From Candidatus Iainarchaeum sp. (GTDB lineage Archaea; Iainarchaeota; Iainarchaeia; Iainarchaeales; Iainarchaeaceae), in assembly GCA_013331625.1 (NCBI GenBank), contig DUGC01000063.1:6054-22711 (forward strand): a stretch of 16,658 nucleotides of DNA, given 5' to 3'. Of the stretch, positions 1,977 to 14,075 are shown piece after piece (within the stretch, counting starts at the first letter, position 1; every line of letters begins with the position of its first letter). The translations under genes and the position numbers were made by a program. The notes beneath the pieces were generated by a model. That model ran no database searches. It was given only the letters and a program-made list of their open reading frames with translations, and was not told the origin of the DNA.

Positions 1977-2993
1977 TTATATGAGCCCCCGTCCCACGGC
2001 CTTTGCAACCCCCCTGAGCTGTGCATAAAGCTTTTCAAATTCCTCAGGGCGCAGCTGCTGCGACTGGTCTGAAAGCGCGTGCTCGGGGTCATTGTGCACT
2101 TCTATGAGCAATCCGTCAGCCCCAACGGCAATTGATGCCTTGCTGAGTGCAGGTACCGGCCCGCGCTTCCCTGCGGCATGGCACGGGTCCACAATCACGG
2201 GAAGGTGCGTGACATCCTTGAGTATGGGTATAACGCTCAGGTTCAGGGTGTTTCTTGTCATAGGCTCGAATGTCCTTATCCCGCGCTCGCACAAAATGAC
2301 ATTATTGTTCCCCTCATTCATTATGTACTCTGCGGCAAAGAGCCACTCCTCAACTGTTGTTGATATCCCGTTCTTTAAAATTACAGGCTTGTCAACCTTG
2401 CCGACCTCTTTTAATAGGTCAAAGTTCTGCGTGTTGCGCGCGCCCACCCGCAGCATATCCACGTGCTTTGCAACTTCCTCAACGCTCCTTGTGTCCATCA
2501 CTTCGGTTTCAGTGACAAGGCCAAGCTCTTTTCCCACCTTTTGTATTATCCTGAGGCCCTTTACACCAAGCCCCTGGAACGCGTAAGGCGATGTCCTTGG
2601 CTTGTATGCCGAGGCCCTCATTACTTTTATGCCCATTTTTTTGAGCCTGCTGCCGATGCCATAGAGCTGCTCTTCACTCTCAACGCTGCACGGTCCGGCA
2701 ATCACCACGACATCATTTCCGCCGATCTTCACTCCTTTCACATCAACTATAGTGTTATCAGGGTGCACTTCACGCGATGCCCTTCGGTATGGCTTTTGGA
2801 TCGGCATGACTTTTTCAACAAAGTCGAGGCTCTCCAGAACATCCTTTTCAATTTTTGATTCATCCCCGATTATCCCCACGATTGTTTTCGTGGTGCCGGG
2901 CGATACGTGCACCTTGAGGCCTGCCTTTTTTATAAGGCCGGTCAGGTGGTCAAGCTGCTCTTCTGTAACACCTTTGCCCATCACAACTATCAT
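1977..2993 (-). CDS. aroF: 3-deoxy-7-phosphoheptulonate (DAHP) synthase, type I-beta with FL domain
   Basis: Condenses PEP with erythrose 4-phosphate, the first step of aromatic amino-acid synthesis. The 338-aa protein has the architecture of the Thermotoga maritima enzyme. A ferredoxin-like regulatory domain covers residues 1-65, followed by a TIM barrel from about 75 to the end. Visible motifs are AGPCSVES (99-106), KPRTSP (131-136), GARNTQNF (184-191), CERGIRTFE (235-243) and DPCHAAGKR (269-277). The expected metal ligands C102, H272, E298 and D309 are all present, and E298 and D309 sit in LIEVHNDPEHALSDQ. The N-terminal domain is the site of feedback control by aromatic amino acids in that family. 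Its ATG overlaps the tktB stop (ATGA, 2990-2993), implying translational coupling. It is the last gene of the aromatic operon, and a tandem hairpin element follows its stop. Confidence 0.96.
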   Translation of the reverse strand: MIVVMGKGVTEEQLDHLTGLIKKAGLKVHVSPGTTKTIVGIIGDESKIEKDVLESLDFVEKVMPIQKPYRRASREVHPDNTIVDVKGVKIGGNDVVVIAGPCSVESEEQLYGIGSRLKKMGIKVMRASAYKPRTSPYAFQGLGVKGLRIIQKVGKELGLVTETEVMDTRSVEEVAKHVDMLRVGARNTQNFDLLKEVGKVDKPVILKNGISTTVEEWLFAAEYIMNEGNNNVILCERGIRTFEPMTRNTLNLSVIPILKDVTHLPVIVDPCHAAGKRGPVPALSKASIAVGADGLLIEVHNDPEHALSDQSQQLRPEEFEKLYAQLRGVAKAVGRGLI

Positions 2994-3952
2994 ATCCGAT
3001 CCTCTCCTTTCACCTTCAGTAATTCCTGAGCTATAGCGTCAGCATTCATCCTGTACTTTTCCAATAGTTCGGCAGGCTTTCCCGATTCTGCAAAGCTTCC
3101 CCTGAGCCCGACCCTTGCAAGGCGGCAATCAATGCCTTTTTCCGCAATGACTTCGGCCACAGCGCTTCCAAGCCCGTTTACCGTGCCATCCTCAGCGCTC
3201 ACAACAGCGCCTTTCCTGCACTCTTCCCCGACAGCCTTTGAATCAAACGGGGAAAGGAACGGAACATTGAGCACCGAAACCGACAGGCCTTTCCCCTTCA
3301 GGATTTCCTGCGCTTTCATTGCCTGCTCGACAAGGCCCCCGGTTGCAATAATTGCCCCATCAGCCCCTTGCGCCAAAACAACCGCTTTCCCTATTTTCAT
3401 TTCAGGGACGCCTTCATAAAATATTGCGGTTTTCTCCCTGCATGTGCGCATGTAAAAAGGCCCTGCATTTTCATACATGGCATAAGTTGCCGCAACAGTC
3501 TCATAATAATCTGCCGGGCATATTACGGTAAAATTTGGCATGCTCCTCATTATTGCAAGGTCCATTATTTCCTGCCCGGTAGGCCCGTCCTCTCCGGTTA
3601 AGATCCCGCCATGGCTGCCGACAATTTTGACATTGGTTTTGGAGTATGCGACACTGATCCTTAGCTGGTCAAGGCCGCGGTTCACCACAAAGCATGCAAA
3701 AGAGCTTGCAAACGGCACCTTCCCGCTCAAGGCAAGGCCCGCTGCCATCGAGACCATGTCAGCTTCCGAAATCCCGACATATTTGAACCGGTCGGGGAAT
3801 TTTTTCCCGAACACTATTGATTTCGTGCTCTTTGCAAGGTCGGCATCAATAGCCACTATATCCTCGTGCTTTTCCCCAAGCCCGAGCAGCGCATCGCCAT
3901 AGCCATCCCTTGTTGCAACCTTTTCACCGAGTTTATATTGTGCTATCGCCAT
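2990..3952 (-). CDS. tktB: Transketolase, C-terminal subunit
   Basis: C-terminal half (pyrimidine-binding and C-terminal domains) of a transketolase made as two polypeptides, 320 aa. DADLAKSTKS (37-46) and GISEADMVSMAAGLALSG (60-77) mark the pyrimidine-binding domain; E63 is the cofactor-activating glutamate. GSHGGILTGEDGPTGQ (112-127) carries substrate- and cofactor-site residues. The C-terminal domain runs from about 190. With the N-terminal subunit it would interconvert pentose and hexose/triose phosphates and make erythrose 4-phosphate. The start has an SD-like GGAAGGGG 7-8 nt upstream. It lies 54 nt after the N-terminal subunit gene and overlaps aroF by 4 nt, so its product is made next to the enzyme that consumes erythrose 4-phosphate. 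A DXS-like enzyme is unlikely because the partner half is transketolase-like. Confidence 0.93.
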   Translation of the reverse strand: MAIAQYKLGEKVATRDGYGDALLGLGEKHEDIVAIDADLAKSTKSIVFGKKFPDRFKYVGISEADMVSMAAGLALSGKVPFASSFACFVVNRGLDQLRISVAYSKTNVKIVGSHGGILTGEDGPTGQEIMDLAIMRSMPNFTVICPADYYETVAATYAMYENAGPFYMRTCREKTAIFYEGVPEMKIGKAVVLAQGADGAIIATGGLVEQAMKAQEILKGKGLSVSVLNVPFLSPFDSKAVGEECRKGAVVSAEDGTVNGLGSAVAEVIAEKGIDCRLARVGLRGSFAESGKPAELLEKYRMNADAIAQELLKVKGEDRI

Positions 3953-4006: not shown

Positions 4007-4831
4007 TCATTTCAGCACCTTCAATGCCTCTATGTATTGTTCATTGGTCAGCGCCTTCCCGTGCATGTCAGGGGTGTTTTCAATGAATTTCACTCCCTTG
4101 CCCTTGATAGTCTTTGCGACAATGCACACCGGCTTGCCTGATACCCTTGCCTTCCCAAGGGCCGGCACGATTTCCTCGAACCTGTGGCCGTTGATCTTTA
4201 TCACTTTCCATCCAAAAGCCTCAAATTTCTTGTCAACAGGCTCAACATCTTTTGTCTGGTCAACCCAGCCGTCATTTTGCAAATTGTTGCGGTCAACTAT
4301 CACCGTGACATTATTGAATCCGAAGAAAGGGGTTGCCATAATCGCTTCCCAGCACTGGCCTTCCTGCAGTTCCCCGTCCCCAAAGAGCACATACATGTGG
4401 TGATCTTTCCTGTCAAGCCTTGCAGCATAAGCCATGCCGTTTGCAACAGAGAGCCCCATTCCAAGGCTGCCGGTTGATATTTCAACCCCCGGCGTCTTTG
4501 TCCTGTCAGGATGGCCCTGCAACATCGAATTGATCTGGCGCAGGTGCTTTAATTCCCCGCGGTCAAAATAGCCCGCTTTTGCAAGGCACGCATATAGCGC
4601 AGGCGCGCCATGCCCCTTGCTCATTATGAAGCGGTCACGATCAGCCCACTGAGGGTTTTTAGGGTCATGCTTCATGAGCTTGAAATAGAGCGCAGCCATT
4701 ATGTCAATGCATGAAAAGCTTGTGGTAGGATGCCCCGATCCTGCAATTGTAGTCATTTCCAGTATATCTTTGCGCAGATCGTACGCGATTTTCCTGAGCC
4801 TTTTGACTTCATCCTTTCCAATAGTTGCCAT
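4007..4831 (-). CDS. tktA: Transketolase, N-terminal (TPP-binding) subunit
   Basis: N-terminal half of a split transketolase, 274 aa, carrying the pyrophosphate-binding domain. Motifs are AGSGHPTTSFSCIDI (30-44), RFIMSKGHGAPALY (67-80), and the thiamine-pyrophosphate/Mg motif GDGELQEGQCWEA (151-163) closing at VIVDRNNLQNDG (177-188). It would pair with the C-terminal subunit encoded next in the operon. The ATG lies 1 nt after the pheA stop (TGA at 4833-4835). An SD sequence GGAGG sits about 8-9 nt upstream inside the end of pheA, so translation is probably coupled. Split transketolases are common in archaea. The placement between pheA and aroF suggests it serves erythrose 4-phosphate supply for aromatic synthesis. 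Confidence 0.94.
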   Translation of the reverse strand: MATIGKDEVKRLRKIAYDLRKDILEMTTIAGSGHPTTSFSCIDIMAALYFKLMKHDPKNPQWADRDRFIMSKGHGAPALYACLAKAGYFDRGELKHLRQINSMLQGHPDRTKTPGVEISTGSLGMGLSVANGMAYAARLDRKDHHMYVLFGDGELQEGQCWEAIMATPFFGFNNVTVIVDRNNLQNDGWVDQTKDVEPVDKKFEAFGWKVIKINGHRFEEIVPALGKARVSGKPVCIVAKTIKGKGVKFIENTPDMHGKALTNEQYIEALKVLK

Positions 4832-4832
4832 T

Positions 4833-5939
4833 TCACGATTCCTCCAGTGAATTTTCAGGGTAGCTGCCCAAAATCCTCAGAAATCCTGTGTTTTTCTTCA
4901 TTTCCAAAAGTGCCTGCGACACTTTTGCATCCTCCACAAAGCCTGAGAAATCAACAAAGAACACATATTCCCAGTTTTTTACCGCAGTTGGCCTTGACTC
5001 GATTTTTGTCATGTTGATGCCAAAATTTTTGAGCGGCTCGAGCGCCATGAAAAGTGCCCCGGACTCGTTTTTTGTTGTAAAAACAATGCTTGTCTTTGAC
5101 TTTGCGCACTTCCCCGGCTTCCCCTTGCCTATCACAAGAAAGCGCGTGATGTTATTTGCCTTGTCCTGTATATTTGCTGCAACAATATTGAGGCCGTAAT
5201 GGGCCGCGGCGTAGACGCTTGCAATGCCGGCTGATTTCACGTAAAGCTGGGCTGCCTCGGCGCTCCTAGCAGTTGATGAAACTTCAATAAGCTCGGCGTG
5301 CGGCAGATTCTTTGAAAGCCATTCCCTGCACTGCGTGAGTGCCTGCGGGTGGGAGTACACTTTCTCGATATCATTGAGCCTGCACTTTGAAACAAGGTTA
5401 TGCCTCACTTCTTCCGCAAGCTCTTCGATGATATTGAGGGGTGAGGAAACGAACATGTCATAAGTGTAGGCGACGCTTCCGCCCACCGAATTTTCAACCG
5501 GCACTACCCCAATGTCTGCTTCCCCCTTTTCAACGGCCCAGAAAACGTCCTTGATTGAATCAAAACCCAGATACTGCGCGCCCTTGCCAAAATGCCTTGC
5601 AGCCGCGCTGTGGGAGAAAGTCCCCTGCGGCCCGAGGTATGCAACCTTTACGGGCTTTTGCATCTTGCGCGAAATGCTGAAAATCTCGCGGTAAATTGTC
5701 TCAAGGTCTTCATTTGGCAAAGGTCCGCTGTTTTTTGCCTTGAGGCCTGAAATTATCCCGTTTTCACGGCTCGGGTCATAAACCTCATCATTCGAGAGCT
5801 TTTTTTCCTTCCCGATCTCAATCGCAAGCTTTATGCGCCTGTTGAGCAGCCCCACAAGGCCCTGATCGATTTTGTCAATTTCGCTGCGTGCCTGGTCCAT
5901 TTTCATCAAAATTCCCGTTCCAAATCCCTTACTTTCCAT
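4833..5939 (-). CDS. pheA: Bifunctional chorismate mutase / prephenate dehydratase with ACT domain
   Basis: P-protein of 368 aa that converts chorismate to prephenate and then phenylpyruvate. An AroQ-type chorismate mutase domain covers about residues 15-90 (ARSEIDKIDQGLVGLLNRR). Prephenate dehydratase spans about 97-275: VAYLGPQGTFSH (99-110), VVPVENSVGGSV (145-156), SHPQAL (196-201) and the active-site NNITRF (262-267). An ACT domain spans about 282-360 with the phenylalanine-binding IESRP (313-317), so feedback inhibition by phenylalanine is expected. The start is uncertain. ATG 5939 is used; ATGs at 5903 or 5897 would begin directly at the mutase domain and are credible. It is the first structural gene of the aromatic operon, and a probable aromatic leader peptide lies about 90 nt upstream of its start. 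Confidence 0.95.
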   Translation of the reverse strand: MESKGFGTGILMKMDQARSEIDKIDQGLVGLLNRRIKLAIEIGKEKKLSNDEVYDPSRENGIISGLKAKNSGPLPNEDLETIYREIFSISRKMQKPVKVAYLGPQGTFSHSAAARHFGKGAQYLGFDSIKDVFWAVEKGEADIGVVPVENSVGGSVAYTYDMFVSSPLNIIEELAEEVRHNLVSKCRLNDIEKVYSHPQALTQCREWLSKNLPHAELIEVSSTARSAEAAQLYVKSAGIASVYAAAHYGLNIVAANIQDKANNITRFLVIGKGKPGKCAKSKTSIVFTTKNESGALFMALEPLKNFGINMTKIESRPTAVKNWEYVFFVDFSGFVEDAKVSQALLEMKKNTGFLRILGSYPENSLEES

Positions 5940-5995
5940 TGCATTGTTTCCCTTTGCTTTCCCCTAACTTCGTTCCACGTATCCCTATGCCTTCC

Positions 5996-6093
5996 AAAAC
6001 CGCCCCTCGATTCAAAATTTACGGGGCAAAATTACCAAAAGTAAAAATAGGAATAAGCGGAAAAACTATAAGCCCCAGCGCTTTGGCTGGCGC
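5996..6093 (-). promoter_or_regulatory. Putative attenuator of the aromatic operon (alternative hairpins)
   Basis: Four segments of the minus-strand RNA can pair in exclusive ways. Segment 1 (6093-6086, GCGCCAGC) pairs with segment 2 (6079-6072, GCTGGGGC) by 7 bp with one mismatch. The GGGGC of segment 2 (6076-6072) can instead pair with segment 3 GCCCC (6027-6023). Segment 3 can also pair with segment 4 GGGGC (6006-6002), extended by two U-G pairs and followed by UUUU (5999-5996). The last is terminator-like. Segment 3 starts 4 nt after the leader stop, so a ribosome held on the last aromatic codons would cover it. Pairings were found by eye; energies were not computed. Confidence 0.45.
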
Positions 6094-6124
6094 ACTTTGC
6101 AACCCTGCCAATTGCCGAAACCAT
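6032..6124 (-). CDS. Putative aromatic leader peptide of the pheA-tkt-aroF operon
   Basis: A 30-codon frame, ATG 6122-6124 to TAA 6032-6034. Its last 13 residues are AYSFSAYSYFYFW, with 8 aromatic residues among the last 12 (Tyr, Phe and one Trp), right before the stop. The first part (MVSAIGRVAKCASQSAG) has none. No SD precedes the ATG. A TATA-like box lies 27-28 nt upstream, so transcription would begin at or next to the ATG and translation would be leaderless. The next gene is pheA, followed by the erythrose 4-phosphate and DAHP enzymes. Seen: composition, spacing and pairing segments. Known: such peptides (pheL, trpL) control bacterial operons by ribosome stalling. Inferred: the same role here. 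A short plus-strand frame lies antisense and I regard it as chance. Confidence 0.62.
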   Translation of the reverse strand: MVSAIGRVAKCASQSAGAYSFSAYSYFYFW

Positions 6125-6146
6125 ATTAAAAGTAAAACCGGTAAGG

Positions 6147-6157
6147 AATATAAATAT
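6147..6157 (-). promoter_or_regulatory. TATA-like box of the aromatic operon
   Basis: The minus strand reads ATATTTATATT, preceded by AAGCAAAC as a possible BRE. Its centre is 27-28 nt from the ATG at 6124, the distance expected between an archaeal TATA box and the transcription start. The leader peptide mRNA would therefore be essentially leaderless, and the leader in front of pheA about 185 nt long. Confidence 0.55.
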
Positions 6158-6247
6158 GTTTGCTTGGCAAAAACCACAGGTTTTTTGGAACCTGCCCAAA
6201 GGTGAATGAATTGCAGCGAAGGGCTCGGGCCCGCAGAAGGCTGTGCT

Positions 6248-6253
6248 AAAAAA
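6248..6253 (-). terminator. T-rich terminator after the AEC transporter
   Basis: On the minus strand a TTTTTT tract starts 2 nt after the transporter stop (TGA at 6256-6258). Archaeal transcription can end at such U-rich tracts without a hairpin. A GGGCccgaGCCC hairpin lies about 25 nt further on. This separates the transporter from the aromatic operon's promoter. Confidence 0.4.
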
Positions 6254-6255
6254 GT

Positions 6256-7134
6256 TCAGGAAACCGCTGCGAGCACCGCCGCAATTGATATGATGCTAAA
6301 CAGCGTCCCTATGAGCACTGCACTTGCCGCATTGTGCGGGTCTGCGGAGAACTTCTCATTGAGCACATAGCTGTTCACTGCAGGAGGCATCACTGAGAGC
6401 AAAAGCACAACCGATGCCACAACGCCTTCGAGCGCGAATATTTTCACGAACACAAAGCCCGCAATCCCCCCGACCACGATCCGGGAGAACACTGCAAGAA
6501 GCGGCACTTTGAGCGCTGCCAGCTCCAGTGTCACAAGCCTCCCTCCGAGAGCAAGGAGCGCAAGGGGGATTGTTGCCGAGCCAACCATGCTCAGGGCATC
6601 AATGAGCGTGACTGGAAGAGGAACAGCAGTGAAATTGAATAGCAGGCCGAGGAAAATCACATAAATGAGCGGCAATGAAAACACCGCCTTTATTCTCCCC
6701 TTAACCGTTTCCCCCTTATTGTGCACAAGGAAAATGCCAAGGGTGAAAAGCAGTATTGTCTCAACGGTGTCAAAGATTATCGCTTTCTGCAAGCCTATCT
6801 CCCCAAGCGCAAAAAGCGCGACAGGATAGCCAAGGTACCCGGAATTCATGAACATGGAAGGCAATATGATCCCTGAATTTTTATACCCGATCGCGCTGAA
6901 AGCAAAGAATGCAAAAATTCCTGAGGCAAACATCACGGCAATGGCAGCAAGAGTTAAAATGTAGAGCTCTGAAGCATAAATTCTGTGCGAATAGAGGGCA
7001 ACAAATATGAGCGCAGGCCCTGTGACATATAACACGAGATCGGAAATATTTTTGTGGTCAAAGCCTATCGTTTTCTGGAAAATCGCGCCAACGGCCATAA
7101 CCCCGAAGGCAACAAGGACCGGGTCAAGGAACAT
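6256..7134 (-). CDS. AEC-family (auxin efflux carrier/malate permease type) transporter
   Basis: Integral membrane protein of 292 aa with about ten hydrophobic segments filling the whole length, typical of the Mem_trans (AEC) family. Landmarks are VLYVTGPALIFVALYS near residue 38, the conserved MNSGYLGYPVALFALGE near 95-112 in the first half, and VMPPAVNSYVLNEKFSADP near 252-270 in the second. The two halves are related inverted repeats in this family. Members export or import organic anions, amino-acid-related compounds or auxin; the substrate cannot be read from sequence. Lying between two amino-acid operons, it might move an amino acid, keto acid or organic acid, but that is inference. The ATG at 7134 has no SD and a TATA-like sequence lies about 28 nt upstream, so it is probably leaderless. 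A T tract follows its stop. Confidence 0.88.
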   Translation of the reverse strand: MFLDPVLVAFGVMAVGAIFQKTIGFDHKNISDLVLYVTGPALIFVALYSHRIYASELYILTLAAIAVMFASGIFAFFAFSAIGYKNSGIILPSMFMNSGYLGYPVALFALGEIGLQKAIIFDTVETILLFTLGIFLVHNKGETVKGRIKAVFSLPLIYVIFLGLLFNFTAVPLPVTLIDALSMVGSATIPLALLALGGRLVTLELAALKVPLLAVFSRIVVGGIAGFVFVKIFALEGVVASVVLLLSVMPPAVNSYVLNEKFSADPHNAASAVLIGTLFSIISIAAVLAAVS

Positions 7135-12658: not shown

Positions 12659-13846
12659 TTATAAATTATTTAATGGCAAATCCTTTCTGCCGCCCATGGC
12701 CTTTGCAGCAATTGCCACGATTTCATCATCTTTAAGGCCCTTTTTGCCCGCAGCAGCCTCTTTTATCCCTGAAGTGATTGCTGCAAGCTCATTTTCATCC
12801 GGCTCAATGCCGTTTTTTTTCAAAAAGTCTGCGATCGCGGCCCTTCCAGAGAGCTTTCCGATCACAAGCTCTGTTTCCTTTCCGATCATCTTTGGGTTCA
12901 TGATCTCATACACCTCGCGATTCGAGAGTATCCCATGCTGGTGCACTCCGGATGCATGGGCAAAGGCATTCCTGCCAACAACGGCCTTGTTCGGCTGGAC
13001 GGGAATGGACGTGAGTTCGCTGACCATTTTGCTTGTACTGTAAATTTCCCGCAGGTTGATATTTGTTGCCGCATTGAAAAAGCGTTCACGCGTGTGGATG
13101 TTCATCACAATTTCCTCAAGTGCAGCATTGCCGGCGCGCTCGCCGATACCATTGACGGTACATTCAACCTGCCCTGCACCTGCCATCACGCCTGCAAGGC
13201 TGTTTGCAACGCTTTGCCCCAAGTCATTGTGGCAGTGCGTGGAAACCGTGACTGAATCATTGTAGCCCGGGGTGTTTTCAATTACGCCTTTAATGAGCGC
13301 CCCATACTCTGAAGGCTGCGTGTAGCCGACAGTATCGGGAATATTGAGTGTTGTTGCGCCCGCATGGATGGCCTTCTCCAAAACAGTGTAAAGGAATTCA
13401 GGCTCGCTCCTTCCCGCATCCTCGGGGGAAAATTCAACCTCGTCGCACAGGCCTGCAGCATACCCTACGCATTTTTCAGCCTCTTTAATGACCTGCCCAG
13501 GCTCCATTTTCAGCTTGAATTTCATGTGGATCGGTGAAGTTGCAATGAACACGTGGATCCTCGATCTTTTAGCCCCTTCAAGCGCCTTTGCCGCAATGTC
13601 GATGTCCTCTTTGCGGCAGCGGCCAAGGGCGCAAACAGCGGGTTTGCCTATAATGCTAGATATTTCCTTTACCGCATTAAAATCGTCATTGCCAGCAGCC
13701 GGAAAGCCCGCTTCGATGATATCAACATTGAGCTTTTCAAGCTGCCTTGCAATAATCACCTTCTCTTCACTTGTTAGTGCCGCCCCGGGGGTCTGCTCGC
13801 CATCGCGCAGAGTCGTGTCAAAAATCCGGATAACCCTTTTTGCCAT
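12659..13846 (-). CDS. leuA: 2-isopropylmalate synthase, short form without regulatory domain
   Basis: Condenses acetyl-CoA with 2-ketoisovalerate, the committed step to leucine. The catalytic TIM barrel shows [16 protein letters not shown] (9-24), [50 protein letters not shown] (metal histidines) and [14 protein letters not shown]. The linker region has [20 protein letters not shown]. These favour isopropylmalate synthase over citramalate or homocitrate synthase, though substrate choice within the family can shift. At 395 aa it ends where the roughly 120-residue C-terminal leucine-binding domain would begin, so allosteric inhibition by leucine is not expected. ATG 13846 fits the family; a GTG at 13864 is the alternative. 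It is the first structural gene of the leu-ilv operon. The 5' region carries a leucine-rich leader. Confidence 0.94.
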
Positions 13847-13902: not shown

Positions 13903-13974
13903 AAAAAGCAGCCCTAAGGACTTCTGAAAGGTTTTATCGCCGCCCCCCAGAAGAAGAAATTTTGTCAGGGAGCT
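13903..13974 (-). promoter_or_regulatory. Putative attenuator of the leu-ilv operon (alternative hairpins)
   Basis: Segments in the minus-strand RNA after the leader stop are as follows. Segment 1, GCTCCC (13973-13968), can pair with segment 2, GGGGGGC (13948-13942). Segment 2 with its 5' flank, CTTCTGGGGGG (13953-13943), can instead pair with segment 3, CCTTTCAGAAG (13931-13921), over 11 bp including three G-U pairs that work only in the minus-strand RNA. The end of segment 3 is also the start of a terminator-like hairpin, AGTCC (13922-13918) with GGGCT (13914-13910), followed by GCTTTTT. Segment 1 begins right after the leader TAA, so a ribosome stalled on the last leucine codons would cover it and free 2:3. 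By-eye pairing only. Confidence 0.5.
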
Positions 13975-14043
13975 TTAAGCTAGCAACACAAGGCCAAGCA
14001 GTCCAAGAAGGACGGAACCTTGCAATGTATTGCTAAAATGCAT
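13975..14043 (-). CDS. Putative leucine-rich leader peptide of the leuA-ilvBNC-leuB operon
   Basis: A 22-codon frame, ATG 14041-14043 to TAA 13975-13977. The C-terminal part is QGSVLLGLLGLVLLA. Eight of 22 residues are leucine and two are valine, using CTT, CTG, TTG and CTA codons. The TATA-like box is centred about 26 nt upstream of the ATG and there is no SD, so the message is probably leaderless. The nearest downstream gene in the same direction is leuA, 128 nt away, heading the leucine/valine/isoleucine operon. A stem (CAAGG..CCTTG with inner GTCC/GGAC, 14022-13989) lies within the leucine codons, and alternative hairpins follow the stop. Known parallel: leuL and ilvL of bacteria. A chance hydrophobic frame is possible but would not explain the position or the downstream pairings. 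Confidence 0.65.
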   Translation of the reverse strand: MHFSNTLQGSVLLGLLGLVLLA

Positions 14044-14063: not shown

Positions 14064-14075
14064 ATATTAAATAAC
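14064..14075 (-). promoter_or_regulatory. TATA-like box of the leu-ilv operon
   Basis: The minus strand reads TTATTTAATATT, preceded by CCGAAAG as a possible BRE. Its centre is about 26 nt from the leader ATG at 14043, which places the transcription start at or beside that ATG. The leader to the leuA start would then be about 195 nt, long enough for an attenuator. Confidence 0.55.

Follow-up and report, generated by a model that had tools for sequence, protein, structure and literature searches.

Ribosome-mediated attenuation belongs to the textbook mechanisms of bacteria, and the phe, leu, his and trp operons of enterobacteria are governed by ribosome-mediated transcription attenuators. The leaders described here share with these a short ORF that encodes the amino acid made by the operon and precedes both RNA hairpins and the biosynthetic genes, but differ from them in an archaeal promoter and polymerase, an often putatively leaderless start, one main hairpin at the stop codon without a conserved 3:4 pairing, and a U-run that is mostly absent. 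As the control codons and the hairpin are present while the terminator U-run is mostly missing, we file them as a variant of the ribosome-mediated attenuators.

In layout our leaders come closest to the leaderless polycysteine short ORFs of mycobacteria (Canestrari et al. 2020), which in the excerpts of PMC9031893 control downstream translation. Like our leaders, some of which may be leaderless too, they carry contiguous codons for an amino acid whose supply sets the speed of the ribosome; unlike them they are bacterial, and it is control of translation that the excerpts describe. For the actinobacterial LEU element the excerpt of PMC1262725 gives the proposal that a Leu run pairs with the leuA SD and that the region folds into a pseudoknot. 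Our leucine leaders resemble it (PMC1262725, same excerpt) in having a Leu codon run upstream of leuA with some attenuator parts missing, but pairing of the codon run with the SD is not above mismatched controls here (z −0.18; 27 leaders, phe and leu together). The same excerpt describes mycobacterial cys leaders with Cys codons near the stop and no conserved terminator hairpin.

In archaea transcription and translation share one compartment and the termination factor FttA favours U-rich RNA, as stated in the excerpts of PMC8116511 and PMC11616081, the former also noting that factor-dependent termination is present in archaea. Termination by FttA (aCPSF1) as presented in these excerpts is like the system proposed here in that U-rich RNA and ribosome occupancy may set the outcome, and unlike it in that leader-peptide control is not described there; the word ‘attenuation’ occurs in neither PMC8116511 nor PMC11616081. 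One general sentence in the excerpt of PMC10219788, citing reviews, names attenuation as a way in which uORFs work in archaea as well. A search of the open-licence literature by title and abstract start found no report of an archaeal leader-peptide attenuator.

The aromatic leader and its conservation

The window, the whole stretch of 16,658 nucleotides that was analysed (G000:C111:6054–22711), belongs to genome bin G000 (1.43 Mb), whose host is an archaeon, with TBP found in the genome. The features around the aromatic leader all lie on the minus strand:

6147–6154, minus: TATA box TTTATATT of the leader promoter, first base 30 nt 5' of the leader ATG
6032–6124, minus: leader ORF including the stop codon, MVSAIGRVAKCASQSAGAYSFSAYSYFYFW (frame read; relatives compared)
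6035–6070, minus: control-codon run, 8 Tyr/Phe/Trp codons in the last 12, up to the stop
6023–6029, minus: arm A (UUGCCCC) of the stop-adjacent hairpin
6014–6017, minus: U-run in the hairpin loop (T4+ shortly 5' of arm B in 18/33 leaders)
6000–6006, minus: arm B (GGGGCGG) of the stop-adjacent hairpin
5996–5999, minus: UUUU after the hairpin (T4+ at this place in only 9/33 leaders)
4833–5906, minus: pheA, chorismate mutase-prephenate dehydratase (PF01817, PF00800), ATG at 5906
4007–4831, minus: transketolase N-terminal half (PF00456)
2990–3952, minus: transketolase C-terminal half (PF02779, PF02780)
1977–2993, minus: DAHP synthase, aroF-like (PF00793, PF18152)

The leader frame comprises 30 codons from the ATG at 6124–6122 to the last codon TGG at 6037–6035, followed by TAA at 6034–6032 (minus strand), and eight of its twelve final residues are Tyr, Phe or Trp, just as an earlier sequence-only reading of the window had claimed. 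That reading had also placed the start codon close to the expected transcription start and seen no SD; the distance to the TATA box agrees with the former, and no Shine-Dalgarno-like match was flagged 5' of the leader ATG at 6124. A second in-frame ATG of pheA lies upstream at 5939, and a gene for a membrane transport protein precedes the leader on the same strand. The kind of PheA encoded here (window 4836–5906) is common in bacteria, with at least 80 loci, all titles among the matches listed being bacterial, and up to 50% identity; entries close to this genome may be missing from these matches. Rfam covariance models gave no gathering-level match in the window, neither to a T-box nor to another RNA element. 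Over 5700–6500, with E up to 1, only snoTBR5 appeared, inside the pheA coding sequence (window 5739–5828) and below cutoff (25.6 bits vs 44), which is probably a chance match.

A pheA census of the 75 genomes of the order with a cutoff of E 1e-20 or better returned 27 genomes, to which we added G005, whose contig ends within pheA, giving 28; G034 was left out, as its weak match covers the chorismate-mutase part only. The aromatic leader proved to be conserved when the upstream regions of these relatives were compared: 16 of the 28 genomes, from seven families, have a short ORF with an aromatic end ahead of pheA itself or of the genes that run up to it. Six of them have it immediately 5' of pheA (G000, G002, G004, G005, G056, G022). 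Further upstream, stretches of 0.5–9.6 kb from 20 genomes were scanned for promoter-spaced short ORFs, and seven genomes carry the aromatic leader farther up, ahead of same-strand long ORFs towards pheA (G014, G021, G024, G061, G062, G044, G063). A looser scan (9 of the 20 stretches) added the aromatic leaders of G006, G013 and G036, whose promoter spacing is poor or unknown. We discounted a Cys match (L229), a GTG BCAA match (L230) and four L245 matches, three of these being aromatic with 12–17 codons and one BCAA. In the other 12 genomes no aromatic leader was found, either with about 9 kb upstream being read (G009, G019, G020, G030, G071) or with the contig ending 0.3–3.1 kb upstream (G003, G027, G038, G050, G057, G067, G069; about 500 nt read for G027 and G038). 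The 16 leaders have 6–9 aromatics in their last 12 residues, with a mean of 7.2.

Leucine leaders, codon specificity and promoters

The window contains a second leader of this kind, ahead of leuA:

14064–14071, minus: TATA-like box TTTAATAT of the leucine leader, 28 nt 5' of its ATG
13975–14043, minus: second leader ORF including the stop codon, MHFSNTLQGSVLLGLLGLVLLA
13942–13973, minus: stop-adjacent hairpin of the leucine leader, GCUCCC...GGGGGGC
12659–13846, minus: leuA-like isopropylmalate/homocitrate synthase (PF00682, PF22617), ATG at 13846

The leuA-like gene is the first behind this leader and is followed by ilvB-, ilvN-, ilvC- and leuB-like genes. Orthologs of leuA were found in 19 of the 87 genomes of the phylum (the class-level and phylum-level searches covered the same 87), matches of 35% identity or less being taken as paralogs, and 18 of them have upstream sequence; the leuA of G018 is located at a contig edge. 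A leader ending in Leu/Val precedes 17 of these 18, in seven families; G013, where leuA comes after another gene, has no Leu/Val leader. The leader of G009, which starts with GTG, had been missed by the ORF scan and was recognised by eye. On average the leucine leaders have 8.8 Leu/Val/Ile and zero aromatics in their last 12 residues (n=17). In six of them (L133, L134, L135, L138, L142 and L214, from G000, G004, G002, G014, G061 and G062) the element A(G/A)AAGTCNTTA recurs ahead of leuA, 14–19 nt past arm B.

When the 16 aromatic regions were shuffled with dinucleotides preserved, an ORF with at least 6 aromatics in its last 12 residues arose in 101 of 4,800 trials, or about 2%, so that a single case would be no more than suggestive; its recurrence in 16 of 28 pheA genomes makes it secure. 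With the same threshold, shuffling the leu regions gave a Leu/Val/Ile ORF in 35 of 5,100 trials; the real regions pass it in 16/16 (aromatic) and 14/17 (leu) cases. As the leaders were partly selected by the property tested, and from longer stretches, the genome counts are the fair figures. The codon type follows the operon, in keeping with the claim that the control codons match the product: no aromatic ORF was found in the leu regions and no Leu ORF in the aromatic ones (0/33 cross-matches), and none of 35 control upstream regions (hisG and trpE, 450 nt) has an aromatic or Leu/Val/Ile ORF. Leaders with at least 3 His in the last 12 residues were not found before hisG (600 nt, 17 of 22 loci), nor Thr/Met leaders before homoserine dehydrogenase in 7 loci.

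The control residues are encoded by varied codons, namely TTT, TTC, TAT, TAC and TGG in the aromatic leaders and all six Leu codons in the leucine leaders, and the run of control codons reaches the final codon of the ORF or the one before it in 32 of the 33 leaders. Between G061 and G062 the phe leaders differ in 4 synonymous and 7 non-synonymous codons and the leu leaders in 5 and 4, with 18–19 codons being identical, and in four more distant leader pairs non-synonymous changes outnumber synonymous ones. With non-synonymous changes in excess in 5 of the 6 pairs the whole peptide is not strongly kept, only its C-terminal composition is.

A TATA-like octamer (score 7 or 8 of 8) lies 27–33 nt 5' of the start codon in 15 of the 33 leaders, or in 18 if boxes of score 6 are admitted, both being raw counts. 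This spacing supports a putatively leaderless start in about half of them; in the remaining leaders the best TATA-like box is located elsewhere, often further up, from which a short 5' UTR would follow.

The stop-adjacent hairpin

In the window itself the RNA fold is ordinary, with z −0.63 for 5980–6124, the folding having been proposed as a check by the sequence-only reading, and z +0.63 for the 60 nt that follow the leader stop, so that the structural evidence rests on the set of relatives. Across all leaders the 60 nt after the stop have a mean z of −1.38 against shuffles (n=33, related sequences). The best helix starting 0–11 nt past the stop has a mean of −15.6 kcal/mol and reaches −10 kcal/mol or lower in 30 of 33 leaders; bins from 12 nt past the stop onwards do so in at most 33%, and bins inside the ORF in 21–61%. 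The position of this hairpin is conserved and its arm sequences are diverse, for example GCACUUCC/GGAAGUGC, GCCCUCU/AGAGGGC, AACACCCUU/AAGGGGGUGUU and GGCUCUCC/GGAGAGCC.

Pairing was compared between matched and mismatched arms in 27 of the 33 leaders, F_G005, F_G013, F_G036, L_G056, L_G057 and L_G067 being excluded on the grounds of a start that is absent, late, non-ATG or close to the hairpin; the starts of the first genes were chosen by eye and the limits of the hairpin arms set by hand. Arm A pairs with its own arm B at −13.4 vs −7.6 for mismatched arms (z −2.30), and arm B shows no such preference for the sequence downstream (z +0.16). A conserved 3:4 pairing gave no signal. All four segments on which the sequence-only reading had built its scheme do exist (GCGCCAGC at 6093–6086, GCTGGGGC at 6079–6072, GCCCC at 6027–6023 and GGGGC at 6006–6002). 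The scheme, with its segments 1 and 2 in codons 11–18, has no counterpart by eye in the other 32 leaders and is not supported by them: the structure that recurs is one hairpin adjacent to the stop.

Competing pairing of the codon run with arm A is weakly indicated, mainly in the leu leaders. In the comparison of matched and mismatched partners it reaches z −0.54 vs −0.19 for the control pairing of the ORF start with arm A (27 leaders), and against synonymous resampling the helix has a mean z of −0.85 in the leu and −0.37 in the phe leaders. The best cases are G061 (fraction 0.010), G062 (0.020), G024 (0.040), G063 (0.043) and G009 (0.050), G006 being the best phe leader (0.060), and several leu leaders are able to pair the end of the control run with arm A. 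In the leu leader of G009 the Leu run stops five codons ahead of the stop codon, and the ORF itself contains a hairpin arm of 12 bp that begins 2 nt past the last Leu codon. Here arm A tracks the control codons and not the stop, which, as one case, fits a ribosome at that place deciding the fate of the hairpin.

Of the 33 leaders, 18 have a U-run of four or more shortly 5' of arm B (background 0.198, p 1e-5) and nine have one after arm B (background 0.141, p 0.035). The UUUU that had been noted behind the hairpin is present in the window at 5999–5996, but makes it an exception among the leaders.

A proposed ribosome-mediated switch and its alternatives

We consider it likely that the aromatic leader is a ribosome-mediated attenuator in an archaeon, the position of the ribosome on the control codons setting whether the hairpin forms. 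From the arrangement described above we infer translation of the leader, stalling, termination and the polarity, that is the direction, of the control. Transcription would start at the leader AUG or just 5' of it, and the leader ORF would be translated while emerging. With ample charged Phe, Tyr and Trp tRNAs the ribosome would cross the aromatic codons, reach the stop codon and depart, after which the stop-adjacent hairpin could fold and RNA polymerase would halt ahead of pheA, either unaided or via the archaeal terminator FttA/aCPSF1; the U-run in the loop might serve as a polymerase pause site. With scarce charged tRNAs the ribosome would linger on the aromatic run and the hairpin would be prevented, arm A being covered directly by a ribosome stalled on the last codons or, after an earlier stall, pairing with the freed codon run where the sequences permit, and the polymerase could proceed into pheA-tkt-aroF.

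With the usual ribosome footprint of about 15 nt ahead of the P site, arm A would be covered only while the ribosome stands on the stop codon or on one of the final two or three control codons. That a stalled ribosome itself blocks the arm, as had been proposed, is consistent with the control codons abutting the 5' arm of the hairpin, but early stalls would leave the arm uncovered; direct blocking cannot be the whole account for these, and the weak pairing of the codon run with arm A may cover them. Arm A would be hidden just as well by a ribosome waiting at the stop, so the hairpin of the fed state would require prompt release.

Among the alternatives, it is possible though unlikely that the hairpin is not a terminator at all and that the ribosome shields U-rich RNA, namely the aromatic codons and the U-run of the loop: once the ribosome leaves at the stop, FttA would bind the bare U-rich RNA and end transcription, and a stalled ribosome would exclude it. 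The U-runs lying more often before than after arm B fit this, as do the ends of the phe leaders, whose last 36 nt are 52% T, with a T-run of five or more in 13/16. In the excerpt of PMC11616081 FttA prefers U-rich RNA 30–36 nt behind the RNA end, and its exclusion by coupled ribosomes is proposed. Such shielding would leave unexplained, however, why a stable hairpin of varied sequence follows right behind the stop, and the ends of the leu leaders contain less U (42% T), 0/17 having a T-run of five or more.

Translational attenuation, in which the leader would govern whether the Shine-Dalgarno sequence of the first gene is open to ribosomes, appears improbable. It is how known bacterial leaders with control codons are described in the excerpts of PMC1262725 and PMC9031893, and SD-like sequences are present at several first genes. 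Against it, pairing with the Shine-Dalgarno site was not above mismatched controls in the 27 leaders, neither for arm A (z −0.06) nor for the codon run (the value given above) nor for arm B (z −0.05), and in these leaders the hairpin ends 27–51 nt past the leader stop while the first gene begins 77–171 nt past it. The lack of SD pairing together with this distance makes transcription the likelier target than translation. Possible exceptions are the leu leaders of G056 and G057, both outside the pairing test, with candidate leuA starts only 28–48 nt past the leader stop.

We give very little credence to the idea that the nascent peptide is sensed instead of the codon supply, its aromatic or Leu C-terminus arresting the ribosome in response to free amino acid. 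The control run does extend to the stop in nearly all leaders, and the trp operons of the same phylum have a different leader with a D-L/S-L-W motif, but the number and order of the aromatic or Leu residues vary among the leaders, and arrest peptides are not known to vary in this way. Equally far-fetched is that the leaders are untranslated chance ORFs in U-rich terminators or spacers: Phe and Tyr codons are U-rich and the shuffles do yield some aromatic ORFs, but the leu leaders have no T-runs of five or more, so that a plain U-tract does not explain both sets of leaders, the codon type follows the operon, the control regions are empty and about half of the starts lie at promoter distance.

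Returning to ribosome-mediated attenuation, we also lean, a little less firmly, towards a phylum-wide arrangement in which aromatic, Leu/Val and trp operons stand under translated leader ORFs, the first two with a minimal switch, consisting of control codons, a stop codon and a single hairpin whose loop holds a U-run, that would set the ribosome against archaeal termination. If true, it would be the first case known to us of leader-peptide attenuation in archaea. The main signature of an attenuator (matched codons, a short promoter-proximal ORF and an adjoining hairpin) occurs at 33 operons of one archaeal phylum, which suggests that coupling of transcription and translation is tight enough for sensing there. 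This coupling becomes testable with an archaeal polymerase and FttA, and a simpler attenuator design would be on offer.

In connection with the trp operons we noticed a conserved element, GATTYACTTTGG, within a short ORF that has a single Trp codon and often lies close to a promoter (e.g. MARRDLLWGQSGCFK, MQGDSLWLR). A search of the 87 genomes with the pattern RRNGATTYACTTTGG gave 20 sites, in 18 genomes, vs 4 for the reversed control; 16 of the 20 are in frame within such an ORF, and 10 of these 16 lie at most 0.8 kb upstream of a trpE match. The loci are L266, L265, L267, L270, L268, L259, L257, L260, L272, L262, L263, L258, L254, L255, L269 and L271, with L266 (G000:C111:4644–4658) being located outside the window. 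As the element is kept at the nucleotide level it is possibly an RNA or DNA element. At L270 (G021) an 18-nt form, AGAAGGGATTTACTTTGG, is present in two copies, of which the second lacks a start codon.

Five genomes have a tRNA-Trp(CCA) gene upstream of trpE, namely G000 (where it bears an intron), G056, G020, G014 and G004, with the trp element further upstream in all of these except G020; in G005 (L200) the same position was called as tRNA-Arg with an intron and looks like the same tRNA. The loci with a tRNA upstream of trpE are L204 (G000), L191, L194, L195, L197 and L200. At four of them (L191, L195, L197, L200) the end of a second Trp-rich ORF precedes the tRNA gene, reading WVWVWRCS, WLWAWFTP, YAWHWL and YAWRWL, the last being read by eye, and in G004 and G005 this second ORF is, by hand reckoning, in the +1 frame relative to the first.
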